Below are positions 3,245-31,060 of a DNA stretch of 64,000 nucleotides, piece after piece (the first letter of the stretch is position 1; every line of letters begins with the position of its first letter). The DNA comes from Hyphomonas sp. Lineage in GTDB: Bacteria; Pseudomonadota; Alphaproteobacteria; Caulobacterales; Hyphomonadaceae. A program made the position numbers and the translations under genes. The DNA is taken from the NCBI RefSeq assembly GCF_013823385.1, contig NZ_PNMA01000003.1, positions 124,001-188,000 on the forward strand. The letters are read 5' to 3'. Below the pieces are notes generated by a model that saw only the letters and a list, made by a program, of their open reading frames with translations, ran no database searches and was not told the DNA's origin.

Positions 3245-4906
3245 TCAGTTCGGCCAGTAGATGTATTCTTCGCCTTCGACATAGGGATCGGCCAGGGTGT
3301 GGTCGATCTTGATGGGACTTTCGATTGTGTACGGATAGAGCGGCTGGCGGGCGTCTTTCCAGTGAGCGTCGATCAGGGCCTGCAGTTCGGCGAGTTTTTC
3401 CGGCTCCGAGGCGGCAAGGTTAGTCTGCTCGGTGGGGTCGCTCTTCAGGTCAAACAGCCAGGATTTGTTCTGGCGGCCATTGACCTGGAGTTTCCAGCCG
3501 CCGGCGCGTACGACCCTGTAATAGCCGCTGGACCAGAAGATGGCATCGCCGGGGCGTGCGAACTCGCCATTGCCGGTGGCGAGCGGCAGGATGTTCTGCC
3601 CGTCGATCTCGACGCCGGCGGGGAGCGGCGCGCCCGCGACGGCAGCGAGGGTGGGCATCATGTCGACATGCGCGACGGGTTCATCGACGACCGTGCCGGG
3701 CTGGATGGCGGCGGGCCATTTCATGAAGAGGGGCACGCGGATGCCGCCTTCAAACAGGGTGATCTTCCAGCCGCGATAGGGCGCGTTGACCTCCGGAATG
3801 CCGATATAGCCGGCAGCGCCATTGTCGCTGGAAAAGACGATGATGGTGTTGTCCGCGAGGCCTTCTTCCTCCAACTTCTCCATGATGCGGCCGACGCTGC
3901 GATCCACGGCGCGGAGCATGGCGGCGTAGACGCGCAGGCGATGGGGCTCGATGTCGCCGACGGCTTCATAGTCTTCCTTCGTGGCCTGGAGCGGCGTGTG
4001 AACGCCCCAATGGGCAAGATAGAGGAAGAAGGGCCGGTTCCGGTTGGCTTCAATCACTTTCAGGGACTCGTCGGTCCAGTAATCGGTGAGATAGCCGCCC
4101 GGCTCGAACCAGTCGCTGCCATTATAGCTGGCAGCGAACTGCATCCGTGCCCAGAGGAATTTGTCGATGGGGTCAAAGTCTAGCCTTGCATCCACCCCGC
4201 GCGGATCGCCGGGGGGCAGGAACATGCCGCTGGCCATGTCCAGGCTTTCATCGAAGCCCTGATCGTTTGGCTTGAAGGGGGAGGCGTTGCCAAGGTGCCA
4301 TTTGCCGATATGGACGGTGTGATAGCCGCGCGCCTTGAGGACTTCGGCGATGGTGACCTCTTCGCTGGGCAGACCCTGCTCGGCGAAGGGAGGCATGATC
4401 TTTTCGTTTTCCTTCACATGCTCCGTAGGCGGCAGGCCTGTGCGCATGTCGTTGGCGAACATCGGCACGATGCGGGACATGCCGGGCGGGGTGGGGGTAT
4501 ATTCAAAGCCTGTGCGGGTGGGATAGCGGCCCGTCATCAGCATGGCGCGGGACGGCGCGCAGGTGCCGGTGCCGGAATAGGCGGTGGAGAAGAGAGCGCC
4601 GTCGGCGGCCAGCCGGTCGATATTCGGGGTGGGGACACGCCCGCCTGCGACGCCGCCGCCAAAGGTGGAGATGTCGTTGATGCCGAGATCATCAGCGAGG
4701 ATGAAGATGATGTTGGGCGGGCGCTCTGCGGGCGGCTGCGCGGCTGTTTCCGGACCTTTCATCCACAGGATGGGGCGGTTGGGCGCAATCTCCGGCCGCT
4801 CCGAGCGCGTGACGAGATAGAGGATGATTTCCTTGCGGTTGAAGAAGGCGAGCGCGCCGGCGCCAATGATCAGAACGGCGAGCCCGGTGAGGATCTTGCG
4901 CAGCAT
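3245..4906 (-). CDS. Type I sulfatase (arylsulfatase family), membrane-anchored
   Basis: The protein is 553 aa. An N-terminal hydrophobic helix (residues about 5-22) with no obvious cleavage site suggests a membrane-anchored periplasmic enzyme. The metal-binding start IIFILADDLG contains Asp72-Asp73. The sulfatase signature is CAPSR at residues 116-120 followed by TGRYPTRTG, so Cys116 is the residue to be converted to formylglycine. HIGKWHLG and the SSDNGAA segment supply the usual Lys/His and Asp-Asn metal ligands. It lies only 4 bp from the next sulfatase upstream, so the two are an operon, convergent with the FGE gene. The substrate (sulfated glycan or aryl sulfate) cannot be assigned by eye. 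Confidence 0.9.
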   Translation of the reverse strand: MLRKILTGLAVLIIGAGALAFFNRKEIILYLVTRSERPEIAPNRPILWMKGPETAAQPPAERPPNIIFILADDLGINDISTFGGGVAGGRVPTPNIDRLAADGALFSTAYSGTGTCAPSRAMLMTGRYPTRTGFEYTPTPPGMSRIVPMFANDMRTGLPPTEHVKENEKIMPPFAEQGLPSEEVTIAEVLKARGYHTVHIGKWHLGNASPFKPNDQGFDESLDMASGMFLPPGDPRGVDARLDFDPIDKFLWARMQFAASYNGSDWFEPGGYLTDYWTDESLKVIEANRNRPFFLYLAHWGVHTPLQATKEDYEAVGDIEPHRLRVYAAMLRAVDRSVGRIMEKLEEEGLADNTIIVFSSDNGAAGYIGIPEVNAPYRGWKITLFEGGIRVPLFMKWPAAIQPGTVVDEPVAHVDMMPTLAAVAGAPLPAGVEIDGQNILPLATGNGEFARPGDAIFWSSGYYRVVRAGGWKLQVNGRQNKSWLFDLKSDPTEQTNLAASEPEKLAELQALIDAHWKDARQPLYPYTIESPIKIDHTLADPYVEGEEYIYWPN

Positions 4907-11966: not shown

Positions 11967-12986
11967 TCAGGCGTGGTTCTGATCCACCCGGATACGGCCG
12001 GCCGTGATTTCATCAATAATGTTGAAGACGGCGTTGAAGTCTTCCAGAAGTTCGCGCACGCGGTCTGCGCTGTCGAGCGGCTTGAACATGCTGCCGGGCT
12101 CGAACAGGTTCCCGCCCTGCACGGTGATCAGCACTTCGCCGCCGTCAAAACAGGCTTTCAGCTTGCCACCCTTGAACACATGTTCGAGATCCACGAGTTT
12201 CTGCATCACATCCGGAGTGAGCAGGTAGCGGCTTTCAACCTGGTCTGTGGTGTAGACTTCGAATATCTTTTCAAAGGTCGGATCTTCCAGGCCCGCGCGC
12301 TGCATGCCTTTGCCGCCGCCGAAGCGGTTGAAGAAACCGGCATCCCGCGTCACCAGCGTTCGTCCGTAGAAGGTCTTGTGGAAGTCGAGGCGCAGGCACT
12401 GGCCCTTGAACACCGTGACCCAGGTTGTCCGTGTGCGGCCTTTGGAGTCTGTCGTGGTGCGCTTTTCTTCAAGATGGGCTTCGAACAGTTCGAAATTCAC
12501 CTCGCGGCGCACGCCGGTGATATAGTCCTCATACTTTGAGCGGTCCCAGCCGGGGACGACGCCGACTTCCTTGTGGCGGTAGATCGACTGGACAGCGCCG
12601 GGCGCGGCTGTGAAGCTCAAGCCAAACTGTTCGGCAATCGGCACCACGATCAGGTCTTTTGCTTCCCTGGCAAGCTGGGTGACGCCATGCTCGCCGGCGG
12701 CAAAGACGATGATGCCGATGAACCCGGCGACAATGGCGATCCAGAGCATCTGCGTCAGGAAAGCTACCGCCAGACCCGCAGCGATCACACCTCCGGCGAT
12801 CCAGCGTAGCTGGATGGCGCGCCTGGTGACTTTTATCCGCTCTTCTTCGCGCGCCAGCAGCGCGGGGCGGATGCGTTCCTCGAAGATCTGATCGAAGCCC
12901 TGAAACTCCCTGGGCAGACCTGCAAGCGCCTGCCGGATGGCCTGGTTGCCTGCGGAGGGTTCCGGGGAGAGTGAGGTATCCGTCAT
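11967..12986 (-). CDS. DUF3137 family membrane protein
   Basis: The protein is 339 aa. A cytoplasmic N-terminal part of about 60 residues is followed by two closely spaced transmembrane helices (IAGGVIAAGLAVAFL and MLWIAIVAGFIGIIVF, residues about 68-105). The large soluble C-terminal domain contains YEDYITGVRREVNFELFEAHL and FKGQCLRLDFHKTFYGRT, the arrangement of DUF3137 proteins. The family has no established biochemical function. It is a single-gene unit on the minus strand, and nothing in its neighbours suggests a pathway. Confidence 0.72.
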   Translation of the reverse strand: MTDTSLSPEPSAGNQAIRQALAGLPREFQGFDQIFEERIRPALLAREEERIKVTRRAIQLRWIAGGVIAAGLAVAFLTQMLWIAIVAGFIGIIVFAAGEHGVTQLAREAKDLIVVPIAEQFGLSFTAAPGAVQSIYRHKEVGVVPGWDRSKYEDYITGVRREVNFELFEAHLEEKRTTTDSKGRTRTTWVTVFKGQCLRLDFHKTFYGRTLVTRDAGFFNRFGGGKGMQRAGLEDPTFEKIFEVYTTDQVESRYLLTPDVMQKLVDLEHVFKGGKLKACFDGGEVLITVQGGNLFEPGSMFKPLDSADRVRELLEDFNAVFNIIDEITAGRIRVDQNHA

Positions 12987-20383: not shown

Positions 20384-20457
20384 GGCCCTATGGCGGAGTG
20401 GTGACGCAGCGGATTGCAAATCCGTGCACCCCGGTTCGATTCCGGGTGGGGCCTCCA
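20384..20457 (+). tRNA. tRNA-Cys (anticodon GCA)
   Basis: The gene is 74 nt with encoded CCA. The acceptor stem GGCCCTA pairs with TGGGGCC (one G-T pair). The anticodon stem GCGGA/TCCGT closes loop TTGCAAA with anticodon GCA, and the T arm CCCGG/CCGGG has loop TTCGATT. The last 16 bases and one base beyond are repeated at 30649-30665, marking this gene as the integration site of the adjacent element. Confidence 0.95.
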
Positions 20458-20458
20458 C
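20442..20458 (+). repeat. attL, 17-bp core
   Basis: CCGGGTGGGGCCTCCAC is the T-arm/acceptor 3' half of tRNA-Cys plus one base. The identical 17 bases recur at 30649-30665. The integrase stop codon lies 7 bp away. Confidence 0.88.
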
Positions 20459-20464
20459 AATCAA

Positions 20465-21571
20465 TCATTTTTCGTTACCTTTCAGGTTGTTGGTGTGAGA
20501 ATTGGCTAACCTGCCCTCTTGGTTCGCCAAATTTTGTTCCCGTTCCATATCAGGGCTGAGCTTGTGCATTGCTTGCCGGGCGAGTTTCAGCCTGTCTGCA
20601 GCACGTGAATAACGCGCCACTTCGCTGAGGCTTCTGTGACCAGTGATGGCAGCGATTTCATGTGGACTGCAGCCGGCCTCAGCGAGGCGTCGTGCACATG
20701 CTTTGCGGAGGCCATGAGGGGAAAGGCCATCTGGTAGGCCGCAGGCTTTGGTGCGGGCTACAAACCACTGTGAGAGGGATTTGACACCATAAGGCGCCCC
20801 TCGATCTGTCAGGATGAACATTGCCTGACCGAGATCTATTCGATCTATTTCTGCCTGCAGCTCAGGCAGAACGGGGACCGCGACCGGCTGGCCGGTTTTT
20901 TGCTGAGTAATTGATATGGCGCCGCCTTTCAGGTGCTGGCGGCCCATTCGGGTAACGTCGCTCACCCTCTGTCCGGTGCAAAGGAATAGCTCCAGCGCTA
21001 GGCGTTCTCGGGTTCCGGAAGGGTACGATTTCCGGAAGTGTTCGATTTCGTCGTCGGTCCAGGTGCGATGACCTTCCGATTGATCTTTGACCTTCCGGAT
21101 GCCTTGGGTCGGATCGATCGATACAAGGCCGTGACGCTGGCCGTGGCTGTAAATGACACGCAGGACCTTCAGCAGTTCGTTTGCAGCCGCGGGGGTGCCG
21201 GATCGCTTGCTGATCAATTTTGTGACGTGTTGGCGCTCTAGGCGGGCTGCAGGCAGGCTACCGAACTCATCAACAAACTTGTCGATGATGCGGCGCCGAG
21301 GTGTTCTTGTCGCCTCAGCGAGGGCCTGAAATTCCTGGCTCTGCAGATAGTGGACAGAAAGAGCCCGGATGGTTCCCGCCGGGATGCGAGCAAGTGAATT
21401 GCGGTTGCCGCCTGTTTCAGAAGCCCTGAGGGCGGCGGCGTAGGCATCAGCGAACTCGCGAGATTGCGGGTCCGGCATAGGGCATTGATAGCCTCTCTGG
21501 CGAAAGCGCCAGCGGCGGCGGCCATGTCTGTCGACATAGCTCGAAAGGCCTTTAATCCGTACCTTGCTCAA
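20465..21571 (-). CDS. int: Tyrosine recombinase (phage-type integrase)
   Basis: The protein is about 368 aa from a TTG at 21571, beginning SKVRIKGLSSYVDRHGRRR, the usual opening of alphaproteobacterial prophage integrases; the frame runs further upstream to 21718 without a better start. It has an N-terminal arm-binding domain, a SAM-like core-binding domain and a C-terminal catalytic domain. The catalytic set is visible: Arg in CTGQRVSDV, His-x-x-Arg in SPHGLRKACARR, His in TGHRSLSEV and nucleophilic Tyr in VARYSRAADR. It catalyses site-specific recombination at the tRNA-Cys end next to it. The TTG start overlaps the preceding small gene by about 20 bp, suggesting coupled translation at the end of the long leftward operon. 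Confidence 0.93.
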   Translation of the reverse strand: MSKVRIKGLSSYVDRHGRRRWRFRQRGYQCPMPDPQSREFADAYAAALRASETGGNRNSLARIPAGTIRALSVHYLQSQEFQALAEATRTPRRRIIDKFVDEFGSLPAARLERQHVTKLISKRSGTPAAANELLKVLRVIYSHGQRHGLVSIDPTQGIRKVKDQSEGHRTWTDDEIEHFRKSYPSGTRERLALELFLCTGQRVSDVTRMGRQHLKGGAISITQQKTGQPVAVPVLPELQAEIDRIDLGQAMFILTDRGAPYGVKSLSQWFVARTKACGLPDGLSPHGLRKACARRLAEAGCSPHEIAAITGHRSLSEVARYSRAADRLKLARQAMHKLSPDMEREQNLANQEGRLANSHTNNLKGNEK

Positions 21572-21755
21572 GCGCGATATCCCACGGGTTAGGGGCGTCA
21601 GCCAGCACCGGTTCGGCTTGCTGATCGCTAATTTGAACTGTGATGCGACCATCAGGGTGAAGATCCACGCCAATTGGGCGAAAGCCGCAACGCTGGATAC
21701 CTGCGAGGCTTTGCGCAATTTTTGCTTGAGAGGGGTATCTAGCTTTGGCGGTCAT
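21552..21755 (-). CDS. Small protein upstream of integrase
   Basis: The protein is 67 aa if the internal ATG at 21755 is used, or 103 aa from 21863. The core (SQAKIAQSLAGIQRCGFRPIGVDLHPDGRITVQI) is a short helix followed by a beta hairpin. It resembles the uncharacterised small proteins that commonly sit immediately before tyrosine integrases in alphaproteobacterial prophages. A role in directionality of recombination is possible but unproven. Its end overlaps the TTG start of the integrase. Confidence 0.5.
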   Translation of the reverse strand: MTAKARYPSQAKIAQSLAGIQRCGFRPIGVDLHPDGRITVQISDQQAEPVLADAPNPWDIALEQGTD

Positions 21756-21873
21756 GGTCACATCGTGCAGTGAAGGGGTAGGCCGTGCGTCCTTGAAGGC
21801 AGGGGAAACGGTTGCGGGCGCCCAGGACGCTTTTCGTTGTTCGGCGGGCCTCAGCGCCGTCATCCTGAGCCCG

Positions 21874-22206
21874 CTAGTTCAATACGGCCGTCAGGCGAAC
21901 GCGGAGAGAAGATGCGGCTGAGCCGGCGGCCTCAACACATACTCCAATGAGAAAATTGGCTTCGCTTGTTGTTGTGCATTCGCGCTCAGCCGCGTCCCAA
22001 TACACGCGACTTCCGAGCGTGAAGACCTGCGAAGTGGCCTTCGGGAGCTCATAGACGCCTTCACAGTGAAGCACCAAATCGTGCCCAGTGGCCGCGTCAG
22101 CGCCCGCGACGCCGAACAAACGATCGATCAACACGCCTTCGCCAGAAATGATGTTCCTGGGCGAGGGGACTGTGATTGCGTTGCCGGGCTGAATGAAATT
22201 TCTCAT
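21874..22206 (-). CDS. DUF2190 family capsid cement/decoration protein
   Basis: The protein is 110 aa with a clear Shine-Dalgarno (AAAGG) before the ATG and a 1-nt gap after the preceding gene. The opening NFIQPGNAITVPSPRNIISGEGVLIDRLFGVAG and the later YELPKATSQVFTLGSRVYWD are typical of DUF2190 phage proteins, which are beta-rich and thought to stabilise the capsid surface like lambda gpD. Its place after the capsid and gpW-like genes agrees with a head role. It is the last structural gene before the integrase end of the element. Confidence 0.8.
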   Translation of the reverse strand: MRNFIQPGNAITVPSPRNIISGEGVLIDRLFGVAGADAATGHDLVLHCEGVYELPKATSQVFTLGSRVYWDAAERECTTTSEANFLIGVCVEAAGSAASSLRVRLTAVLN

Positions 22207-22207
22207 G

Positions 22208-22423
22208 TTACCAACCTTTCTTCATGCGGACGGTCAACGATTTCCGCGATTGACCGCCTTGTGCTGTTCTGAGTTCTTCGGTGAGGTCCTGAATGGCGCG
22301 GCGGAGCTCAGCGTCCGATCGATATTCGACACTGTTGCCGTCATATTCGACCTTCCGAACCCCAGAAGCGCGCGCCGCTTTCAGGGTTTCAAGCCGTGCT
22401 TCTAACTCCGCCACGCTTGCCAT
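22208..22423 (-). CDS. gpW-like phage head completion (head-tail joining) protein
   Basis: The protein is 71 aa from the ATG at 22423, which overlaps the capsid gene stop (ATGA). Two helices (VAELEARLETLKAARASG and DAELRRAIQDLTEELRT) flank a short beta hairpin RKVEYDGNSVEYRS, the fold of the gpW family. gpW-type proteins close the portal vertex and create the site for tail attachment. In lambda the gene lies between terminase and portal; here it follows the capsid gene. It is the only candidate interface for a tail in this tail-less element. Confidence 0.8.
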   Translation of the reverse strand: MASVAELEARLETLKAARASGVRKVEYDGNSVEYRSDAELRRAIQDLTEELRTAQGGQSRKSLTVRMKKGW

Positions 22424-24258
22424 CAGGGCACCGCCGCGTGATCGAGCCGTGTCCAGCCCCGCCATTCAACGAACGCGTGGCCAAGATCATGCCGGATCTT
22501 GAATTGCAGGGCATCGACTTCGAAGCCCCAGCGGCTTTCCGTCATGGGACCAGGCTGCCCCTCAAGGGTTGCCTTCACGAGGCCGTCCATCTGCGATGGA
22601 TTAGCGCTGAGCCAGCTCTTGTCTGTTGCGGACAACCGGGGCTCCACAACGACCTGAAGCTTCCCGGCAAGCGGGTTCACATCAGCAATGGCTGATGCTT
22701 GGACGGTGGCCACTGCTTTCAGCGCCGTTTCCTCGAATTCAGGCGCTACGATCCAGTAGGCAGGGAACACGCCAACAATAACATTGCCGCGACCCTTGCG
22801 CTTTGACATGGCTGCGCGCGCGGTCATGAGGCTGGTAACAATGGTCGCAAGGCTGGTGGTATTCAGCGTGGCGATGTTGCTGCGGTCGCCGTGGAACACC
22901 GGCGTTCCGTCTCGCATCGTGGGCCCCGCATGGCTGGCCTGTTCGATGAATGCGACCGCACGATCAGCTTCATCTGCGGCGAGACGCCGTCCCTGCGATC
23001 CAGAGAGATTGGCGAGGGCGCCAGCTCCATTTATGTAGAGTTGCCGGCTGATGGAGGTGATGCCGCCAAGAGTGTAGAGCAAGACAGGCTCACCGTCATC
23101 GGTGACGGCAGAGGTCTTGAACTCACCGGTTTCCGCAACGCGGTCGACCTTGAGCGTGGTCCAGTCGACAATCACATCGTTCTGCGGGCGGAAGTCCTGA
23201 AGGCTGCGCGAGCCAAACAGGGCGGTGATAGGGCTCGCTGCAGCTTCATACTCGCGGCGCACATTCATGTTTACCGCCTCGCCGGCAATCTGCGGCATGT
23301 CACTGGTCGCCAGCAGGCGGGTGAAAAGATCAACACGGCTGAGGCCGGTGGTCTGAATGCCCATCGACCGGGCGTAGGAGCGGTGCATTTCGTCCCACTC
23401 CAGGCCTGCGAGCTGACGGGCCGCGCCTTGCGGTTCCTCGCCGGTCATCCTGGCAACAATGGCGCCGGTCATAGCACGCCGTACCGCAGACGGATTGTCG
23501 AGCGTTTCGGCATTGTGGCGGGTCGCCGTCCGGCGCGCAGGGGCTGTCCGCTGGCGAAGGGCAGCAACGGCGGCAGCCCTTTCGTTGTCCGTTCCGGGAT
23601 CTTCTTCGCTGTCCATGCTGCGGCTCAAAACATCAGCACCCAGATTGAGGGCTTCTGCTGTCCGGCGGATGATGGCGACATCTTCGGAGGTGGCCGTTTC
23701 GGTCGCGGCTTCCGTGGCAGTGTCTTCGGTCTCGATTACTTCGTCTTCCATGACTTTTCCTTTGCTTCTTATGCGCGCCGCCGGGTCCGCCGGATCGACA
23801 ACCAGAGATGCTTCAACAAGTGTCCACGACATGGCGGTTCGAAGCGGCTTGCTGCCTCGCTCGCCATTTCGGTTCTGCCAGCGGGCAACGCGGTAGCCGA
23901 CGCTGAGAGAGGTAATGGTGCCGTCTTCGATGCGGCTTGCCAACCAGTCGAGATCGGAACCCTGCGAGAGCCGGGCGCGGCCGACAAGCTGTCCATTCTC
24001 GATACGAATGTTCTCGACACGGCCGATTGTATTTTCGACTGATAGAACATGGTCGAGCTGCAGCGGCAGGCTTTCTGGCCAACTCGCTCCGGCAACATCA
24101 AGCACCTCGAAAAAGTTGCCGCGATCAACCGGCGCGTCCGTTGCCAAAATGACTTCAAAGGTGCGGAGCTGGGGATTGTAGGTATTGGCAACTGGCCGCA
24201 TGCGGTTGACGACACGCGAAGGCTGGGCTCGTCTCTGGGCAGATGATCGCTTAAGCAT
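22423..24258 (-). CDS. Prohead protease-major capsid protein fusion
   Basis: The protein is 611 aa. Residues about 20-170 form a prohead protease domain: RTFEVILATDAPVDRG, the QLDHVLSVENTIGRVE block with the candidate catalytic His, and SLSVGYRV with the candidate Ser. A linker rich in Glu and Thr (residues about 170-260) probably acts as the scaffold or delta segment. The C-terminal 330 residues are an HK97-fold capsid protein (MNVRREYEAAASPITALFG, GGITSISRQLYINGAGAL). One chain therefore supplies protease, scaffold and shell, and self-cleavage must release mature capsid protein. It overlaps both portal (8 bp) and gpW (ATGA) genes. Confidence 0.88.
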   Translation of the reverse strand: MLKRSSAQRRAQPSRVVNRMRPVANTYNPQLRTFEVILATDAPVDRGNFFEVLDVAGASWPESLPLQLDHVLSVENTIGRVENIRIENGQLVGRARLSQGSDLDWLASRIEDGTITSLSVGYRVARWQNRNGERGSKPLRTAMSWTLVEASLVVDPADPAARIRSKGKVMEDEVIETEDTATEAATETATSEDVAIIRRTAEALNLGADVLSRSMDSEEDPGTDNERAAAVAALRQRTAPARRTATRHNAETLDNPSAVRRAMTGAIVARMTGEEPQGAARQLAGLEWDEMHRSYARSMGIQTTGLSRVDLFTRLLATSDMPQIAGEAVNMNVRREYEAAASPITALFGSRSLQDFRPQNDVIVDWTTLKVDRVAETGEFKTSAVTDDGEPVLLYTLGGITSISRQLYINGAGALANLSGSQGRRLAADEADRAVAFIEQASHAGPTMRDGTPVFHGDRSNIATLNTTSLATIVTSLMTARAAMSKRKGRGNVIVGVFPAYWIVAPEFEETALKAVATVQASAIADVNPLAGKLQVVVEPRLSATDKSWLSANPSQMDGLVKATLEGQPGPMTESRWGFEVDALQFKIRHDLGHAFVEWRGWTRLDHAAVP

Positions 24259-25600
24259 GAGCTTGCTCCGTCTGGGGTAGCGCTGGCGACATTGAAGGAG
24301 GGTCGTTGTCGATTTCGCTGCGCACTTCCTCAGGATCGCGCCCGCGAGCGGCTATCACTTCTGATCGGCTTTTCAGGCGAGCGCCGATAGCTGCAATGTC
24401 TGCCTCGACTTCGTCCTTCGGATTGATCGGATCCCAGCCGGGCCACATGAAAACAGGCTCGGGTAGTTTGTCCGGATCGGCCTCAAGGCGGCCCGCGAGG
24501 ATTTCCTGCAGGGCCCAGCGACGGAAGATCGGGCGAAGGGCCTGATGCTCTAGCAGGCTCTTCTGAAGTGCCTTCATCCGCCGACGAAACTCCATCAGTC
24601 CGAGGCGGGCGGACGAATAGTTGACCTGGCTGAGGTCGCCCGAAACAAGCTCATAGGGGACGCCAGCGCCAGCCGCGAGGGTACGCATCATATAGCGCGC
24701 AAGCTCTGGCTGCGCGCTGGCATCTCCATGGGGGGTGAAGGTAACTTCGGAGTCCGCAGGAATGACGCGGATAACGCCCGGCTCAAGCGAGAGGCTTTCT
24801 TCCGAACCACGAGAGAACCCGGCATCGCCGGACGGATCGCGAACGAAACCGGCGAAAAGCGCGGTCACTCGCGCCTTTGTCAGGATTGCGTCTTCGAGCT
24901 GGTCGAGCTCGACCGCCCTGGTCGCGATCGATGTGAGCGGCGAGACGCCGCGCATCTGACCGGGGTGGCGCGGATCGTAGATGTGAACGACATCAACCGC
25001 CGGAATGCGGACTGAAGGCCCGGCCATCGGGAAGGGGCCATCCGGCGGGGTGGGCAGGACCCAATACGCGACCCGGCGGCCGAACGCGTCGATTTCGATG
25101 CCCTGAACGATCATTCCGCCGTCGCCAAGATCTTCGTTCCGGTCCCGGTCGATCTGTTCGGGGCTGACCAGGCGCAACGCGAGCGCGCCAACGTCCGTGG
25201 TGTCCAGAATGAAGAAAGCCTCACCAGTGCGGACCCAGCTTTGCACCGCGCGGCGCAGCAAGCCCGCGAGATCAGACACGCCTTCTGCATCCGCTAGGTG
25301 CCAGAAGCGGTTCCAGCCGGCGACAATTGCCGTGTCCGGATGATGCAGGGAGGGGCCATCACCGGCGAGATTGGAAGTGTAGGCGTTCTCTACTGCACGC
25401 AGCGCCGGAGAATTCTCGACCAGGTAGCCGATGCGGGCGCTCACTAAGCGTGCTGCAGCATGTGCCTGGCTGGCTGGCGCCCTAAGGTGCGCAGACATAG
25501 GCCAGCGGCCGCTACCGCCAGCAGCGTCGTAGGAGCGGCGGCCCGTAAGAATTCTGGAGAAACTATTCCGAATGCGGACTACAAGGGACGCCATATTCAT
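24251..25600 (-). CDS. Phage portal protein, lambda gpB family
   Basis: The protein is 449 aa. The N-terminal part contains LVSARIGYLVENSPALRAVENAY and the middle has VVHIYDPRHPGQMRGVSPL, the hallmark of lambda-type portal proteins. VPYELVSGDLSQVNYSSARL and the WPGWDPINPKDEVEAD block complete the family pattern. Twelve copies would form the ring through which DNA enters the procapsid. The 3' end overlaps the protease-capsid gene by 8 bp and the 5' end overlaps the MerR-like gene by 4 bp, so the three are translationally linked. Confidence 0.92.
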   Translation of the reverse strand: MNMASLVVRIRNSFSRILTGRRSYDAAGGSGRWPMSAHLRAPASQAHAAARLVSARIGYLVENSPALRAVENAYTSNLAGDGPSLHHPDTAIVAGWNRFWHLADAEGVSDLAGLLRRAVQSWVRTGEAFFILDTTDVGALALRLVSPEQIDRDRNEDLGDGGMIVQGIEIDAFGRRVAYWVLPTPPDGPFPMAGPSVRIPAVDVVHIYDPRHPGQMRGVSPLTSIATRAVELDQLEDAILTKARVTALFAGFVRDPSGDAGFSRGSEESLSLEPGVIRVIPADSEVTFTPHGDASAQPELARYMMRTLAAGAGVPYELVSGDLSQVNYSSARLGLMEFRRRMKALQKSLLEHQALRPIFRRWALQEILAGRLEADPDKLPEPVFMWPGWDPINPKDEVEADIAAIGARLKSRSEVIAARGRDPEEVRSEIDNDPPSMSPALPQTEQAHA

Positions 25601-26193
25601 TCTTCCGCCATGCTAACCATCCAACGCCGGACCAGCCGGAGAATGGTAGGTGTGTAGTAGAAGGGAATTCCGTTTTGCGATGCCAAGTGAGGCTTGGCGA
25701 CATGACGGGCTAGCGCCTCTTTTGAGGTAAACAGCCGCACTTGAGGACCAGAGAAAGGCGCTTGTTCTTCCCAAGCCTTTCGGCGTTCAGACAACGAGGG
25801 CTCGTCTAGACCCACAGGTTGATAGAGGCCCACCAGGCAGAAATCGTCGGCAACTGCGTCCGTGATGCGCGTCTTCGTGTAATCAGAAAGAAAGTCGGAG
25901 AGTTCATCTATCGCAATATTTGCGAACTCCGAAAACTCTCTCGCTAAATCATGGGAGTAACCAATGTGCTGTGCATCGCGAATAACAGCAAAACTTGCTA
26001 AGTCGCGCCCCGAATACCGCGCCCAACCCTTATCTCGCTTCTGAGGCTGAGAGGCCCGCGTTCGGCGCCAGTGCCCCAAAGTTTCGTGCGGCACACCAAG
26101 CAATTTGGCGGCATCACCTGCTTTGAAAATCTGAACCCGGAACGCGCTCAGAAGCTCTGAATAAGATGCAAGATCATTATCTGGCTGGTTCAT
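25597..26193 (-). CDS. MerR-like helix-turn-helix protein inside the packaging operon
   Basis: The protein is 198 aa from the ATG at 26193. Residues about 17-60 form a winged helix of MerR type: FKAGDAAKLLGVPHETLGHW followed by RYSGRDLASFAVIRDA. The rest shows no recognisable domain. Its Shine-Dalgarno AGGA lies inside one arm of a perfect 14-bp inverted repeat (26202-26266), so translation may be gated by RNA structure or by protein binding. Its stop overlaps the portal start by 4 bp. A DNA-binding protein at this place could regulate late genes or take part in packaging. An alternative TTG at 26256 is unlikely. Confidence 0.65.
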   Translation of the reverse strand: MNQPDNDLASYSELLSAFRVQIFKAGDAAKLLGVPHETLGHWRRTRASQPQKRDKGWARYSGRDLASFAVIRDAQHIGYSHDLAREFSEFANIAIDELSDFLSDYTKTRITDAVADDFCLVGLYQPVGLDEPSLSERRKAWEEQAPFSGPQVRLFTSKEALARHVAKPHLASQNGIPFYYTPTILRLVRRWMVSMAEE

Positions 26194-26201
26194 GCGGTAA
26201 G

Positions 26202-26266
26202 TCCTGAGGCGTTGCCAGTTTTTCGGGTGATTCGCCCGATCTTTCAAGACACGCAACGCCTCAGGA
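26202..26266. repeat. 14-bp perfect inverted repeat enclosing an inner hairpin, before the MerR-like gene
   Basis: TCCTGAGGCGTTGC (26202-26215) pairs with GCAACGCCTCAGGA (26253-26266) across 37 nt that contain CGGG-TGATTCG-CCCG. It fills the intergenic gap. In the leftward mRNA the right-hand arm ends with the AGGA ribosome site of the next gene. Confidence 0.75.
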
Positions 26267-26272
26267 GTTTAG

Positions 26273-26521
26273 TTAGGCCGCTTTGCTCTCTTTGGTGGCC
26301 TGCTCTACGCTGAGCTTGCCGTGGTTTTTTAGCGTCTCCACGGCGTCTTCGATCTCATGAACTATATCGTCCATCATCAAGCTTAAGGCGCTGATGCCAT
26401 GCTTCGGCGCGCTGCCTTGCCGATCCCAACCATCGATCGCCATGGTCGCAAGTGCGATTTTGTTTCGGCACTCCAACAACTGATCCATGAGTTCTACGGT
26501 GTTCAATCCTTGGCGAGTCAT
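26273..26521 (-). CDS. Small unknown protein, first gene of the leftward head operon
   Basis: The protein is 82 aa from the ATG at 26521, preceded by GAGAGGAAA; the frame extends 16 codons further without a better site. It is acidic and helical (VELMDQLLECRNKIALATMAIDGWD and SLMMDDIVHEIEDAVETLKNHG). I recognise no family. It is transcribed divergently from the XRE regulator, with 63 bp between the starts, the position of a Cro-like or early gene under repressor control. It could be an anti-repressor or a host-interaction protein; nothing in the sequence decides this. Confidence 0.6.
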   Translation of the reverse strand: MTRQGLNTVELMDQLLECRNKIALATMAIDGWDRQGSAPKHGISALSLMMDDIVHEIEDAVETLKNHGKLSVEQATKESKAA

Positions 26522-26554
26522 AGTATTTCCTCTCTCTCTGGAAGATTTGAAGAG

Positions 26555-26568
26555 TGTGCAAATGCACA
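26555..26568. promoter_or_regulatory. Candidate XRE operator between divergent genes
   Basis: TGTGC-AAAT-GCACA is a perfect 5-bp palindrome midway between the starts of the XRE gene (26585, plus) and the small gene (26521, minus). It is the only clear dyad in this 63-bp intergenic space. Confidence 0.45.
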
Positions 26569-26584
26569 TGTTTGGTTATGCGGA

Positions 26585-26833
26585 ATGAATGACTCCCTGA
26601 CAAGCATGCATATTCGGGCAGGGCGCGCGGCCGTGGGCTGGTCCATCCAAGACCTCGCCGAAAAAATCGATGCGCACCGGAACACTGTCAGCAACTTTGA
26701 GAACGGGCGCACGGAAGATCCTGACATTCTGTCGCGAATGAAAGCGGCCTTAGAGGCGGCCGGTGTCGAATTCCTCTATGGTCCCAAGCCCGGTGTTCGG
26801 CTTGTCAATGTCCGCTCATCCAGCGGGAAGTAA
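26585..26833 (+). CDS. XRE/cI-like helix-turn-helix regulator
   Basis: The protein is 82 aa from the ATG at 26585, or 75 aa from 26606. It is almost entirely one HTH_3 domain: HIRAGRAAVGWSIQDLAEKIDAHRNTVSNFENGR, then a short C-terminal strand EFLYGPKPGVRLV. It is the only plus-strand gene of the element and converges on the terminase gene, overlapping its 3' end by 29 bp. Divergence from the small gene at 26521 and the palindrome between them suggest it is the maintenance repressor of the head operon. It lacks the peptidase domain of lambda cI, so release by RecA cleavage is unlikely and a helper phage signal is possible. Confidence 0.8.
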   Translation: MNDSLTSMHIRAGRAAVGWSIQDLAEKIDAHRNTVSNFENGRTEDPDILSRMKAALEAAGVEFLYGPKPGVRLVNVRSSSGK

Positions 26834-28658
26834 TGACGCTTCGCTTCTGTTGAGCCGTTGGTGATTCACTGGTGATTGGATCGCTCGGGCCGCGTAGCGG
26901 TGCGTCCAGCAATAGCCTTGCCTCGTCGTTGAGCCTCAGCCCCAGCGATTTGAGCCCCTCCAGAGCGGCCATCGCATACACGCGGCAATCGAGCGCTTCG
27001 TTCCTGTCCTGGGCGCGTTTACGCCATTCACGGATTTGGCGGCCTTTATGCCAACGGGCGTGCAAGCGTTCAGCGGTGAGCTGTGAAAGCCATTCGCCCT
27101 CACGACCTGTGGGGAAGTGAACATAGCCCTCACCCGCTGTATCGATCGCCAGACGGGAATAGAAAACATCTTTGATGCCATCAACGCCGATCACAAAAAG
27201 CGGCTGGCCGCCCTTTTTGGCTCTTGATGGCCTGCGGGGCCATGCCGGGCGTCCGGCGCCGGAAGCGCCTTTGATGGCCCAAACACGGCGCGCTGATCTT
27301 GCTGCGCAGAATTCCAGCACGGTTGGGGTGTAGTGCCCCCCGCTATCGATACAGCATGCCCTTACTGAAAGAGCGGGCGCATTGCGAGGCGGTGTGTAGC
27401 GGCGACCTAGAATGCCATCGAGGGTTTCCCAAGTCGCGGCATCAGCAGGCGAACCAGGTATCACGATATAGTCAAGGCTCCAGCTTTCTTCGCCAGCGCC
27501 CCACCCAACCAGCTCCACTTCAAGCCTGTCATCCTGAACGTCGACCCCAGCGGTGATTACAGCAATGCCGTCAGGGAGCGCGTCTCCCCAATTTTCAGCA
27601 CGCGCAGCGAGGCTTTCAGGTTCAAGCCGCGTCTGCCCATCATCCCAAGTCTCAGCGAGCGCGGTATTCGTCCAGGTCTTTAGGCGGGAAACGTCGCGCC
27701 GGGACGCTAGGAACTCAACGGCAATCTCGCCCCATGTTTCAAAGGGGGAGTAGAGCGAGGATAGCAGGAAACCGGCGGTGCGGCCGTCGCCCTGGCCGGT
27801 GGCGATCCATTCTCCGGCGCGCAGCATGGCGGCTTTGTGGTGTTCCCCGATCGGGTCGCCGCAATGGGCACATTCAAGATAGGCTTTCAGGGGCTCACCG
27901 CTTGGCCATTTGATGCGTGCCCACTCAATTGTCTGCATGGCGCCGCAATGCGGGCAGGGGACCTGATAGCGGCGCTGGTCGCTTTCCAGATAGGCAGCCT
28001 CGATGCGGGAAAAGTCGCGGATGGTCGGGGTCGAGACCATGAAGATCTTGCGTTTACCGGCGAATGTGGCCGTGCGTTTAACGGCCAGCGAAACAGGGTC
28101 TCCTTCGCCTTCAACGTCGCTGGGGTATCCATCGACCTCGTCCAGGAAGAGGTAGCGGGCGGGCGTCGAGCGCAGGGCAGATGCAGCGTTTGCGCCCGTC
28201 ATGACCAACTCGCCGCCAATGAAGCGTTTCGAAGTGGCGGTATTGCCGGGGTCGCGCGAGCGAGGGGCCACGACCCTTTCAGCCAGCACAGGCGAAGATT
28301 GAATGAGCGGGTCGATACGGGTCCGGGTGTTGCGCCGCACGACATCGATCGATGGCATGACCAGGAGCGCCACGCCCGGCGCCTGGTGAATGATGTAGCC
28401 GATCCAGTTTAAGCCGGCTTCGGTGCCGCCGAGCTGGGCGCCCTTCTGGAAAACGACCCGTTCGAAGGGCGAGCCGGTCGAGAGGCAATCCATGATCTCG
28501 CGCATGTAGGGCACGCGGTCAGTGCTCCACGGTCCCGGCTCTGCGCTGGCCGAGGGAAGGAAGCGGTGCGCGTCCGCCCATGATGATACACTCATCTGCA
28601 GCTCTGGCCTGAGGCCTGAGCGCCATGCAACATCAAAGGTGTCCCAGCCGTCAGCCAT
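26805..28658 (-). CDS. Terminase large subunit, lambda gpA family
   Basis: The protein is 617 aa from the ATG at 28658, which overlaps the small subunit gene by 8 bp; the long upstream frame is the antisense shadow of that overlap. The ATPase part includes VVFQKGAQLGGTEAGLNWIG (Walker A region) and RYLFLDEVDGYP (Walker B). A zinc-knuckle-like pair of CxxC motifs (CPHCG and CAHCG) follows. The nuclease part holds GVDVQDDRLEVELVGWG, and the tail has RNEALDCRVYAMAAL. Family members cut cos sites and drive DNA into proheads, so cos-type packaging is expected. Full length is compatible with a functional enzyme. Confidence 0.93.
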   Translation of the reverse strand: MADGWDTFDVAWRSGLRPELQMSVSSWADAHRFLPSASAEPGPWSTDRVPYMREIMDCLSTGSPFERVVFQKGAQLGGTEAGLNWIGYIIHQAPGVALLVMPSIDVVRRNTRTRIDPLIQSSPVLAERVVAPRSRDPGNTATSKRFIGGELVMTGANAASALRSTPARYLFLDEVDGYPSDVEGEGDPVSLAVKRTATFAGKRKIFMVSTPTIRDFSRIEAAYLESDQRRYQVPCPHCGAMQTIEWARIKWPSGEPLKAYLECAHCGDPIGEHHKAAMLRAGEWIATGQGDGRTAGFLLSSLYSPFETWGEIAVEFLASRRDVSRLKTWTNTALAETWDDGQTRLEPESLAARAENWGDALPDGIAVITAGVDVQDDRLEVELVGWGAGEESWSLDYIVIPGSPADAATWETLDGILGRRYTPPRNAPALSVRACCIDSGGHYTPTVLEFCAARSARRVWAIKGASGAGRPAWPRRPSRAKKGGQPLFVIGVDGIKDVFYSRLAIDTAGEGYVHFPTGREGEWLSQLTAERLHARWHKGRQIREWRKRAQDRNEALDCRVYAMAALEGLKSLGLRLNDEARLLLDAPLRGPSDPITSESPTAQQKRSVITSRWMSGH

Positions 28659-29187
28659 CTTCGATTTCCTCATCAAGAAGGTCGACCAATGGCGTGTCGG
28701 CAAGCCTGTTGAGGTGCTCTCGCATCTCTCGATCGAGCGCAGCAAACAGCGCCCTGGTATCCACGCCGAGCTCAGCGGCAATGCGAGGGGCCACGCGGGC
28801 GGCAAAGCCGATATGGGCGTCACGCTCAGCTCTGGCGCGTTCGAATGCCGCGCGCTCCACTGTCGCCCTATCGACAAGGCGACCGGCTTGTTTGGCTGCT
28901 TTTTGCTGCAGCAGCTCGCTGTGTGCGCGCTCGCGGGCAAGGCGGGCCTCGGCCAGCTGTGACATTTGGGCCGCTGGAGCGGGGTCAGGATCGCTGGCGC
29001 GGCGGTTCACGTTTGCTTCGAACCATTCGCGACCGTCATCAACGTCAATCCGGCCATCTAGCCGAACAGGCAGGCCCTGCTCAATCAACTGCGATACCCG
29101 CCCAGGTGAAATGCCCAACATCCGGGCGAAGTAGCCTTTCGAAACTGCGCTTGGCGTTTGCTCGGGTGCGTCGAGATTGGGGAACAT
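28651..29187 (-). CDS. Terminase small subunit, Nu1-like
   Basis: The protein is 178 aa. The N-terminal winged helix (KGYFARMLGISPGRVSQLIEQGLPV and RIDVDDGREWF) matches lambda Nu1, which binds cos DNA. The middle and C-terminal parts are helical (EARLARERAHSELLQQKAAKQAGRLVDR...RIAAELGVDTRALFAALDREM) and should bind the large subunit. It overlaps the large subunit by 8 bp. A 156-bp non-coding stretch directly upstream is where the cos site would be expected. Confidence 0.88.
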   Translation of the reverse strand: MFPNLDAPEQTPSAVSKGYFARMLGISPGRVSQLIEQGLPVRLDGRIDVDDGREWFEANVNRRASDPDPAPAAQMSQLAEARLARERAHSELLQQKAAKQAGRLVDRATVERAAFERARAERDAHIGFAARVAPRIAAELGVDTRALFAALDREMREHLNRLADTPLVDLLDEEIEDG

Positions 29188-29343
29188 GGCTTGGCTCAGT
29201 GCATTGTTTAGTTTAGATTATTTAGCTCCGCTGTGAGATGAAGCCCCGCACTCTTCGACAACCCGTAAAGTGCCGGCCCCGGAAGGACCCATGAGGGCCT
29301 AATGTGGCCGCCTCCACGGTGCCGGAATTGGCCACTCGGAGCA
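29188..29343. other. Non-coding stretch upstream of terS, candidate cos region
   Basis: 156 bp without a supported gene lie between terS and the upstream unknown gene. It contains GC-rich blocks such as GCCGGCCCCGGAAGG. cos sites of gpA/Nu1 phages lie just upstream of the small subunit gene. No nicking site can be proven by eye. Confidence 0.35.
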
Positions 29344-29814
29344 TCATCTGCCCTCGACCGCTGCCTTAACCATTCGGACACCTGCAGCGTGGGTGATCAC
29401 GTCCTGCAGGAAGTCACCTAGCGAGGGCGCGAACTGCCCGCGTCGGCAAATTGTGCGCTCGTAGCAAGCCCAGATGGATGCAGAGGGTTGATCGCGGAGC
29501 ATTCGGACCCAATCGTGTGCCACGCTATCCGGCTTGTCTGCGTTGTAGCCGGGATAGTGGGCGAGCAACCGCTTCACGATGGTCAAGACCTCACTCGGCG
29601 TCCCTGGGGACAACAGAGAATTCAACATCGACAATGCGGCTGTCCGCTGATCCTCCGGCAGGATCTGGCTCAATAGGCGACCTTTCGGTGTCGCCCGCCA
29701 TTTGGCGCTCAAGTCGTTCAAACGGGTTAGAGCGAGCTCCATGGCCTCGGGTGTGGGCGCTGGGGCTGTAAGCTGGCGAGGCGCGAAGGTGTGTTGAATG
29801 ACTGCGGTCATCAT
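29344..29814 (-). CDS. Unknown protein in the satellite replication module
   Basis: The protein is 156 aa with a strong ribosome site (GGAAGGAAACT before ATGATG). It is mostly helical and ends with WACYERTICRRGQFAPSLGDFLQDV. This pattern, following a replication initiator, resembles phage helicase-loader-type genes, but the match is too weak to name it. Its first 224 nt overlap the end of the replication initiator in another frame. It lies just before the candidate cos region and terS. Confidence 0.55.
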   Translation of the reverse strand: MMTAVIQHTFAPRQLTAPAPTPEAMELALTRLNDLSAKWRATPKGRLLSQILPEDQRTAALSMLNSLLSPGTPSEVLTIVKRLLAHYPGYNADKPDSVAHDWVRMLRDQPSASIWACYERTICRRGQFAPSLGDFLQDVITHAAGVRMVKAAVEGR

Positions 29815-30535
29815 AGTTTCCTTCCATGACTTTGGTGAGATTGGCGGGCTTCAGCAGCCAGTCGATGGCCAAACAAAACGGCTTACCAGTTCGGCCGGTG
29901 AGGAACGAACTTTGCTCAGCTCGCTCGATTGCGGTTTGCCAACCCTCAAGGCCGATCTTGCGAATGCGAGCTTTCAGGGCCGCTTTGCGACTGTCGCTGA
30001 AGGCGGTGGGTGTTGCCCAGTTTGGCTGGCGTTGGGATGCGACAACGAACATCCGAAAGCCCTCTTCGGCACGGCGAAGCTCACGGGCCCGGTCAGGGGT
30101 AGCGGGCGCCGGTTCAACATGCGCGTCGACAACATCAGAAGCGTCAGCTTCTGATGTAAGGTTGTTCTTATGGGTCGTTCTAGGGTGTGATCGCGTAGGA
30201 TCACGGGGGGTGTGATCGTTAGCGGTCACAGGGGGTGTGACGGGACGGTCACACGGGTCTAAGATAACGCGGTAGAGGTTTTCTCTCTGGCCGCCGTCGG
30301 CTCGATATTGATGTTCTACTGCGACATAGCCCAATTCGACCAGGCGGGCGCAGGCGCGGTTCACAGTTTCGCGAGCAATGCCGAGCAGGTCGGCAATCGT
30401 TTTTTGCTTGGGAAAGCATTCTTGGTCTTTCGATGTGAAAGAGCCGATTGCGAGCAGCACACGGAGCTGGATTGGCGTAAGCCTATCGTCAGCAATCGCG
30501 GCCGAAGGAATGAGAGTGTATCGTGATTGGCTCAC
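29591..30535 (-). CDS. Replication initiator-like protein with N-terminal winged helix
   Basis: The protein is about 314 aa if translation begins at GTG 30535 (SQSRYTLIPSAAIADD); a TTG at 30586 is the outer limit. Residues about 1-85 form a winged HTH of the phage replication type: RLTPIQLRVLLAIGSFTSKD, CFPKQKTIADLLGIARETVNRACARLVELGYV. A disordered linker and a second helical block follow (KAALKARIRKIGLEGWQTAIERAEQS...FCLAIDWLLKPANLTKVMEGNY), a layout like lambda O-type initiators. It is the first gene of the leftward transcript at the attR end and should start replication of the excised element. Its C-terminal 75 codons overlap the next gene out of frame. Confidence 0.72.
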   Translation of the reverse strand: MSQSRYTLIPSAAIADDRLTPIQLRVLLAIGSFTSKDQECFPKQKTIADLLGIARETVNRACARLVELGYVAVEHQYRADGGQRENLYRVILDPCDRPVTPPVTANDHTPRDPTRSHPRTTHKNNLTSEADASDVVDAHVEPAPATPDRARELRRAEEGFRMFVVASQRQPNWATPTAFSDSRKAALKARIRKIGLEGWQTAIERAEQSSFLTGRTGKPFCLAIDWLLKPANLTKVMEGNYDDRSHSTHLRASPAYSPSAHTRGHGARSNPFERLERQMAGDTERSPIEPDPAGGSADSRIVDVEFSVVPRDAE

Positions 30536-30648
30536 GGCTACACCGGAAGTGAAAGGTTCGCCAAATTCGCCGCAATGCACCCGCAAATAGCGCTGAAATG
30601 CGGCGGGTTAGACAGGCTAAGTGTCTGACTATGCGGGAAACGCGCAAA

Positions 30649-30665
30649 CCGGGTGGGGCCTCCAC
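30649..30665 (+). repeat. attR, 17-bp core
   Basis: CCGGGTGGGGCCTCCAC is identical to 20442-20458. Homology to the tRNA does not extend further left, as expected for the distal attachment site. It marks the right end of the element. Confidence 0.88.
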
Positions 30666-30984: not shown

Positions 30985-31060
30985 TCCGCGATAGCTCAGT
31001 TGGTAGAGCAGGCGACTGTTAATCGCCCGGTCGCAGGTTCGAGTCCTGCTCGCGGAGCCA
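30985..31060 (+). tRNA. tRNA-Asn (anticodon GTT)
   Basis: The gene is 76 nt with encoded CCA. The acceptor stem TCCGCGA pairs with TCGCGGA. The anticodon stem GGCGA/TCGCC closes loop CTGTTAA with anticodon GTT, and the T arm GCAGG/CCTGC has loop TTCGAGT. It lies 320 bp outside the right end of the satellite. Confidence 0.96.

Follow-up and report, generated by a model that had tools for sequence, protein, structure and literature searches.

A probable capsid-forming phage satellite at a tRNA-Cys gene of Hyphomonas sp., with relatives in Alphaproteobacteria

Satellites that make their own heads are known mainly from Gammaproteobacteria, Firmicutes and the phages of Streptomyces. By published accounts, cf-PICIs occur primarily in Enterobacteriaceae, Pasteurella, Morganellaceae and several Firmicutes, with an average size of 14 kb (PMC10803314); their published capsids are treated as PF05065, the cf-PICI-related TG54 carries a closure protein (both PMC13230959), and an HNH endonuclease belongs to their gene content (PMC10690885). 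MulchRoom and MiniFlayer, satellites of Streptomyces phages, encode terminases, a portal and a capsid themselves, and MulchRoom particles combine small heads with tails of helper length (PMC10690885). Literature searches among open-licence PMC articles brought up no work on such a satellite from Alphaproteobacteria, Rhodobacter or Roseobacter, or on one with its own capsid plus a tape measure.

Here we analyse an element of about 10.2 kb at positions 20442-30665 of the window (the whole 64,000-nucleotide stretch of Hyphomonas sp. DNA under study), which is inserted precisely at the 3' end of a tRNA-Cys gene. It is very probably a capsid-forming phage satellite that assembles its head as far as gpW and depends on a helper for head closure and tail, a reading based on the tRNA-anchored insertion, the open head and packaging genes, the lack of a recognised tail gene, the gene order of the family and purifying selection. 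The features are as follows.

20384..20457, plus strand: tRNA-Cys (gca), the integration target, left intact (ARAGORN)
20442..20458: att repeat copy 1, exact 17-bp direct repeat (repeat search and empty-site comparison)
20465..21718 (longest ORF), minus strand: tyrosine integrase (PF00589 1.3e-17; phrog_1 1.2e-46)
21552..21863, minus strand: small ORF of 103 aa between cement and integrase, start uncertain, without a Pfam or PHROGs family match
21874..22206, minus strand: DUF2190-type cement (head decoration) protein (PF09956 1.3e-29; phrog_122)
22208..22423 (ORF open from 22465), minus strand: gpW-type head-tail adaptor, Ad1 (phrog_2545 7.4e-20)
22423..24258, minus strand: prohead protease fused to major capsid protein (PF25209 2e-32; PF04586 2.1e-4; phrog_4523 2.2e-103)
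24251..25600, minus strand: lambda-type portal protein (PF05136 2.8e-67)
25597..26256 (TTG start; ATG 26193), minus strand: MerR-like HTH protein immediately upstream of the portal (PF13411 2.9e-9)
26273..26569, minus strand: 98-aa ORF with no assigned function (36% over 61 aa in G045)
26585..26833, plus strand (opposite to the other genes): Cro/CI-like (XRE) regulator (PF01381 1.3e-6, on the longer ORF 26399-26833)
26805..28658 (ORF open to 28940), minus strand: TerL, GpA/lambda type (PF05876; GpA_ATPase 8.5e-94; GpA_nuclease 7.3e-93)
28651..29187, minus strand: TerS (phrog_57 2.9e-29)
29344..29814, minus strand: possible helicase loader (orf156), start uncertain (phrog_2289 0.0013)
29591..30586, minus strand: Rep, replication initiator with winged helix, start uncertain (phrog_19658 4.5e-22; PF13730 8.1e-12)
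30649..30665: att repeat copy 2, exact 17-bp direct repeat (repeat search and empty-site comparison)

The boundaries were examined by blastn with the left and right flanks queried separately. In four relatives (loci L239-L242) the left flank ends and the right flank begins at the same 16-17 bases of the repeat, as expected of an empty site. In a comparison within the genus, 41 of 42 genomes matched, and in 28 of the 30 loci examined among the matches listed the right-flank DNA follows tRNA-Cys at a distance of no more than about 200 bases; the exceptions are the window's own genome and G045, whose copy of the element is broken. Repeat and empty sites together bear out the original prediction of an element with intact 17-bp att repeats in tRNA-Cys.

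The family matches also uphold the functions first assigned from sequence to integrase, Rep, both terminases, portal, protease-capsid fusion, gpW and the DUF2190 protein. The integrase may start at TTG 21718, ATG 21652 or ATG 21478, and orf156, at its full ORF length, shares 224 bases with Rep. The overlaps between neighbouring head and packaging genes measure 8 (TerS/TerL), 4 (MerR/portal), 8 (portal/capsid) and 1 (capsid/gpW) bases, in agreement with the few bases predicted; the gpW ATG shares its one base with the capsid stop, and gpW and cement lie one base apart. In the 15 selected ORFs that were scanned (a choice leaving aside shorter or antisense ORFs), no tail, baseplate, lysis or HNH family matched in Pfam and PHROGs at E<=0.1, so that the predicted absence of tail, baseplate and lysis genes holds in this set. 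Of the smaller genes, the XRE regulator has a 72% match in G045, where the 103-aa ORF matches weakly; many relatives carry an ORF of 50-100 aa between cement and integrase (two clusters of 24 and 23 loci). An ORF of 100-260 aa occupies the MerR-like position before the portal in 75 of 86 satellites, as against one of the 47 loci with phage gene order discussed below. For the portal-upstream ORFs of three other satellites Pfam gave no family at E<=0.01, so the 'MerR' identity applies to the window only.

An integrase, att sites, a replication gene of its own and too few genes for a virion are general features of phage satellites, and the element shows them all. Like cf-PICIs such as EcCIEDL933, it sits in the chromosome as an island, encodes capsid, protease, portal, adaptor, TerS and TerL, protease and capsid here being one gene, and has no tail genes in the 15 ORFs; the use of helper tails would be a further likeness, judged from gene content. 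The differences lie in the capsid, which is of the PF25209 type (2e-32) fused to an S78-like protease with no PF05065 at E<=0.1, in the HNH endonuclease, which was not found in the 15 ORFs at E<=0.1, and in the head-closure connector besides the adaptor (as in TG54), which was likewise not found in these ORFs. Across 89 satellite loci there is one Hc1-like match (L155) and one gpFII-like ORF (L154 and its copy L102). Thus the cf-PICI logic first proposed stands for the head genes and the missing tail, and fails for PF05065 capsid, HNH and head closure. MulchRoom and MiniFlayer resemble the element in having terminases, portal and capsid, and differ in being actinobacterial, with direct terminal repeats, virulent helpers and, reportedly, no significant homology to PICIs (PMC10690885). 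The 'PISP' satellite-plasmid TG93 of Vibrio crassostreae is cf-PICI-like with a capsid other than PF05065, but that capsid is PF03864 and TG93 is episomal (PMC13230959). The Rhodobacter phage RcKemmy and related siphophages share with the element homologues of TerL (43.1%), of the portal and of the capsid-protease fusion (32.9%), and also have a gpW-like gene; RcKemmy, however, is a complete 41-kb phage in which gpW precedes the portal and head attachment and a full tail follow.

Could the element be what is left of a prophage whose tail and lysis genes were deleted? Complete phages do encode homologues of its head proteins, as the RcKemmy capsid illustrates, and the broken G045 copy shows that decay happens. 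Gene order argues against it. Over all collections, the order portal-capsid-gpW was found in 94 loci (89 after five duplicates were dropped, with L102 and L154 still a single element), while gpW stands before the portal in 47 phage-order loci, and a single deletion cannot convert one order into the other. The annotated phages RcKemmy and F10 read TerL-gpW-portal-capsid-cement-tail, and in phage PBb002 an unnamed, gpW-sized ORF occupies the gpW position before the portal. In 77 gene-called named loci (80 found, less L158, L211 and L227, each under 5 kb) gpW follows the capsid in 70, precedes the portal in none and is not called in seven, among them five loci that break off no more than two genes from the portal. 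Tail-profile matches on the same strand downstream of the portal were obtained for 39 of 47 phage-order loci, a figure partly circular since the profiles were made from these loci (10 of the 19 were checked by name), versus one of 94 satellite-order loci. No integrase was found near the 47 phage-order loci, where it may merely lie farther away.

The original prediction had named relatives with the same head genes followed by tail and lysis genes as the sign of a simple deletion; none of the 77 examinable named loci has this order followed by such genes. Its proposal that relatives always lack tails holds for full tail and lysis sets, and not for single tail genes, which a few possess: 9 of 89 satellite loci contain a tail-like match at some position, and five relatives have their own tape measure. 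With the window capsid as sole query against viral contigs nothing was confirmed.

The family adds spread and selection to the case against a remnant. Host class is known for 69 loci, all of them alphaproteobacterial, and the same gene content recurs across many genera at different tRNA genes. In 45 of 63 elements with TerL placed as in the window, tRNA-anchored repeats delimit 9,851-13,645 bp (median 11,759), although the search used 14-base seeds without a shuffled control and eight of the 45 repeats are weak, at 14-15 bases. In the portal tree a branch with SH-aLRT 99 sets apart 85 of 86 satellites, and none of 62 phages falls among them. Relatives were sampled by likeness to satellite portals, which favours the finding of satellites. 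Head genes of the relatives are under purifying selection: omega stays below 1 in every filtered pair for capsid (186 pairs, median 0.25, maximum 0.43), portal (208 pairs, 0.23, 0.44) and TerL (524 pairs, 0.26, 0.52), and gpW gives a median of 0.27 and a maximum of 0.65 in 93 pairs. The dN/dS check suggested at the outset thus came out in favour of selection, with the window capsid and portal (at best 37% and 47% identical to their closest relatives) too distant from all relatives to enter it. It was confined there to gpW, cement and the TerL end, which against G045 give dN of 0.05-0.16 and dS of 1.1-2.5. On gene order, spread in a narrow size range and selection among relatives we rejected the prophage remnant as very improbable.

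Comparison with relatives supports the initial reading of a tail-less, head-making satellite with lambda-type TerL and portal and a protease-capsid fusion. On induction, the integrase of this satellite would excise it as a circle, which the initiator and the replisome of host or helper would copy. TerS and TerL would pack the DNA through the element's own portal into its own protease-matured capsid, which the cement protein would stabilise, and the 10-13 kb size range of the elements suggests a small shell. The head would stop at the gpW adaptor, and a head-closure protein of gpFII/Hc1 type and a tail from the helper would complete a chimeric particle; this dependence on a helper phage may be presumed from the absence of tail and lysis genes. 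The XRE protein on the opposite strand probably holds the element silent, and the head operon is probably switched by the MerR-like gene right before the portal. The head might instead work without any tail, for example as a particle freed when another phage lyses the host, in line with the lack of recognised tail and lysis genes in the element. We consider this very unlikely: gpW, a head-tail adaptor, has been kept and is under purifying selection among relatives, some of which even encode a tape measure. To our knowledge, a gpW adaptor has no use in the absence of a tail.

Taking the evidence jointly, we think it rather probable that these elements form one lineage of capsid-forming satellites across the whole class, which would be distinct from the three capsid clades of cf-PICIs. 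The lineage would have arisen once or twice in Alphaproteobacteria by capture of a lambda/Mu-gpT-type head, with gpW behind the capsid, handover to helpers at the joint of gpW and head closure, and terminases swapped among members. One branch would have taken up a tape measure and a further tail protein, so that its satellites would determine how long the stolen tail is. The possible undescribed lineage of the original prediction is refined to a family spread over Alphaproteobacteria that departs from cf-PICIs in the defining features of capsid family, HNH and head closure. If dozens of genera of Alphaproteobacteria indeed harbour a family of their own, tail piracy would have evolved anew on a different type of head, and many of the 10-kb 'defective prophages' in bacteria of sea and soil would be mobile elements with their own particles. 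The series portal-capsid-gpW-cement-integrase offers a simple genomic marker for finding such satellites. Members that carry a tape measure make it possible to ask whether a satellite can change how long its helper's tail is.

Profile searches of the draft host genome with PF05136, PF04860, PF10145 and PF04865 revealed no helper prophage, and a search with PF06074 was also negative, its controls being silent. The host-genome family searches matched only the satellite and a separate GTA-like cluster (GTA_TIM 2.5e-119), the sole tail-encoding locus found in this draft. A GTA is a fixed chromosomal cluster with tail genes and without integrase; the element has an integrase, att repeats and empty sites. 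The host's own GTA might nevertheless be the usual helper and source of tails, and GTA_TIM is present in 45 of 48 carriers searched (those of 49 of the 70 named satellite loci, less L191). GTA_TIM is common anyway: in the order to which the window belongs, 284 of 398 genomes have it, a rate not comparable with that of the carriers, which are mostly from other orders, and it is also found in phage tails (RcKemmy). The host GTA head is of PF05065/PF04860 type, and the GTA tail does not therefore necessarily match a head that ends in gpW. Carriers of L160, L165 and L224, and G045 of the same genus, lack GTA_TIM, which weakens the case for an obligatory GTA helper; we regard the GTA as very unlikely to be the usual one.

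By sequence, the capsid fusion has three matches among solved structures, one named 'major capsid protein' (9jod) and the other two being proteins with a Mu gpT domain, whereas gpW has no relative among solved structures. AlphaFold models were of low confidence (mean pLDDT 54.1 for the MerR-like protein and 57.0 for the capsid fusion). With the latter, Foldseek gave no match at E<=0.001; herpesvirus proteases make up most of the best ones, which begin at 1.1e-3, and T4 gp21 ranks lower. Finally, a circular metagenomic contig of 11,498 bp (L072) with a 127-bp terminal repeat, in which the integrase adjoins the genes upstream of TerS, looks like the excised circular form of a satellite.

The element is a precise insertion at tRNA-Cys, and the exact 17-bp att repeats that were expected to bound it were confirmed by repeat and tRNA calls and by an empty-site comparison:

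att repeats (repeat search and tRNA call): two exact copies of 17 bp, the first being the 3' end of tRNA-Cys

Measured from repeat start to repeat start the element comprises 10,207 bp, with a G+C content of 59.5% vs. 63.7% and 60.7% in its two flanks within the window. Profile scans of its ORFs gave the same gene families as the original prediction, and none of the 15 ORFs scanned matched a tail, lysis or HNH family. A 459-base query from the left flank, running as far as the first repeat, matches 41 of 42 same-genus genomes; the 30 loci listed from this search were then compared with both flanks. Of the loci with an empty site, the four nearest (left-flank identity 83.6–90.6%) show the left flank stopping and the right flank starting over the same 16–17 bases. 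Right-flank DNA lies at most about 200 bases behind tRNA-Cys in 28 of the 30 loci listed; the two exceptions are the window's genome and its same-genus relative G045.

A capsid search of the host's family (105 genomes) gave matches in 7 genomes, and a portal search of its order (398 genomes) in 23. Genes were called on 186 loci with a custom script and searched with profiles built on the element's head genes together with related sequences; of the 80 viral contigs listed, 69 had sufficient length and a called portal. The loci were drawn by similarity to satellite portals, so that the counts are no measure of how common satellites are. Among 173 loci with a portal, gpW lies behind the capsid in 94 (satellite order, as in the window), before the portal in 47 (phage order) and is uncalled in 32. 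It precedes the portal in the phages RcKemmy and F10 as well, and PBb002 has an unnamed ORF at that place. A same-strand integrase within 14 genes is found in 69/94 satellite-order vs. 0/47 phage-order loci, while same-strand tail-profile matches downstream of the portal occur in 39/47 phage-order, 9/32 gpW-uncalled and 1/94 satellite-order loci. The tail profiles are 19 clusters built from phage-order loci; ten representatives were checked: six could be given a name (head closure, minor tail, terminator, sheath, tube, tape measure), one matched a family without known function, and the remaining three matched no family. An ORF of 100–260 aa stands directly upstream of the portal in 75/86 satellites (median gap 2 bases) vs. 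1/47 phage-order loci; the window's copy has a MerR domain. The named loci are the best 80 of 139 confirmed, 77 of them gene-called after leaving out three shorter than 5 kb: 70 have satellite order, none phage order and seven no gpW call, five of these ending within two genes of the portal.

Removal of five doubly fetched loci left 89 satellites, which still count at least one element twice (L102 and L154). TerL lies upstream of the portal in 63, the arrangement found in the window, downstream in 10 and was not seen in 16. All 69 with an assigned host class (20 have no assignment) are from Alphaproteobacteria: Rhodobacterales 36, Hyphomicrobiales 24, other orders 9.

The gene set of the element stops at gpW, and the head closure/attachment gene that follows cement in phages (phrog_82; RcKemmy) is missing. 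We infer from this that the element would build and pack its own head up to the gpW adaptor, and that a helper would supply head closure and tail. Phage P4 packs a genome of about 11.6 kb into a T=4 shell; set beside it, the size of the element suggests a small shell. The capsid fusion keeps its protease part (PF04586, 2.1e-4, barely over its cut-off), and H70, S119 and E149, invariant in eight aligned satellites, are presumably catalytic.

As far as genomes show, cf-PICIs have the same mode of working. In published descriptions, however, cf-PICI capsids are treated as PF05065 (PMC13230959), an HNH endonuclease is carried (PMC10690885), and the islands have been described chiefly in bacterial groups other than the window's (PMC10803314); three capsid radiations are known (PMC11389934). 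The window element differs on the first three points. One cf-PICI capsid clade may include its lineage.

Quick maximum-likelihood trees were computed for portal, capsid and TerL. In the portal tree 85 of 86 satellites fall on one side of a phage-free branch (SH-aLRT 99), the exception, L088, being a long branch. The capsid tree places the satellites in two groups (75 and 9, support 100 each); the exact place of the window's capsid is unsure because of its long branch (1.66). Satellite TerLs are split over four positions of the tree (52, 17, 2 and 1), so terminases seem to have been exchanged between elements. Given the well-supported branches, no fewer than two changes of label are needed for capsid and portal and no fewer than three for TerL; the trees therefore do not establish a single origin of the satellites. 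The purifying selection proposed for the head genes was borne out among relatives of the window element, with omega below 1 in every pair for six genes (pairwise NG86; pairs of 60–99.5% identity with dS <2.5, saturated pairs dropped). The largest values are 0.43 for capsid, 0.44 for portal, 0.52 for TerL, 0.65 for gpW, 0.71 for cement and 0.42 for TerS, all from relatives' genes, as no relative is near enough to the capsid and portal of the window element itself. Between the window and G045, dN and dS are 0.05 and 1.1 for gpW, 0.06 and 1.5 for the TerL end, and 0.16 and 2.5 (saturated) for cement.

In 45 of the 63 elements with TerL as in the window, a direct repeat of at least 14 bases begins inside or close to a tRNA gene and has its second copy on the far side of the portal (8 of the 45 only 14–15 bases long, in a search without shuffled control). 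These elements, at many different tRNA genes, measure 9,851–13,645 bp (median 11,759). The metagenomic viral contig L072 (11,498 bp), a gpW-uncalled locus with a 75-aa ORF at the gpW place, is likely a relative excised as a circle, because its two ends share an exact repeat of 127 bp and its integrase adjoins the genes upstream of TerS.

Could the host's own gene transfer agent (GTA) be the helper? The draft genome (4.18 Mb, 172 contigs) does hold a candidate, where its single PF04860 portal clusters with other GTA-type genes:

G000:C25:4371-15227 (L269): GTA-like cluster with PF04860 portal, PF05065 capsid and a GTA_TIM protein

GTA_TIM is present in 45/48 carriers searched, but also in 284/398 genomes of the order, and it is absent from G045 and three named carriers searched. 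Lambda-type portals occur in the host draft genome only in the window element. A helper phage from outside is therefore more likely, since the draft genome shows no other lambda-type portal, GTA_TIM is widespread anyway and some carriers are without it; the genus does contain a locus in phage order whose gpW is homologous (G067, L058, 45%). Searches of the draft genome for PF10145 and PF04865 gave no match, nor did PF06074, for which the controls were silent too.

G045 carries a relative of the window element at the same tRNA-Cys (L010:1-5478, G045:C5), and this copy is broken and mosaic. Its TerL end (91%), XRE (72%), gpW (85%) and cement (78%) resemble the window's; the capsid is reduced to its last 52 residues, the integrase differs (24%), and a truncated TerL stands beside an inverted MerR-portal pair with which the contig ends. 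A further MerR-portal pair of G045 lies at the end of contig C34.

The absence of tail genes is valid for the window element and most relatives and not for every one: 9/89 satellite loci have some tail-like match. Five distinct elements, from Blastochloris, Ancylobacter (three) and Rhodopseudomonas, encode a tape measure of 634–794 aa (best PHROG E 1.4e-103 to 1.4e-90):

L151:2397-4301, tape-measure satellite
L152:6482-8863, tape-measure satellite
L154:17307-19691, tape-measure satellite (viral-contig copy L102)
L164:15258-17612, tape-measure satellite
L200:15146-17170, tape-measure satellite

A phrog_166 tail protein is present in three of the five as well, and L154 encodes a gpFII-like protein slightly below the Pfam cut-off; searches of the five with the available profiles and phage proteins found no tube, sheath or baseplate. 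Such satellites may determine how long the tail taken from a helper becomes. The nine loci also include L094, where a 335-aa ORF (3691-4698) resembling the tape measure of RcKemmy (8.1e-16) immediately precedes the satellite portal, and L155, which has an Hc1-like ORF.

In the window's genus, an integrase-bearing element of G069 (L017:4603-9996, with tRNA-Tyr at 12570-12655) has a 637 aa capsid-protease ORF with a 1,109-aa tape measure immediately behind it; neither portal nor TerL was matched on its 12.7-kb contig. L052:8769-10686 (G285) is a decayed relative, in which the portal is followed by a 170 aa ORF that starts like a capsid and overlaps the cement match. In L016:9041-10883 (G091), a satellite with the other TerL order, the integrase lies beside tRNA-Asn, which adjoins tRNA-Cys, and these two neighbouring tRNA genes seem to be a hot spot for elements of this kind; the same tRNA-Asn is at 30985 in the window.
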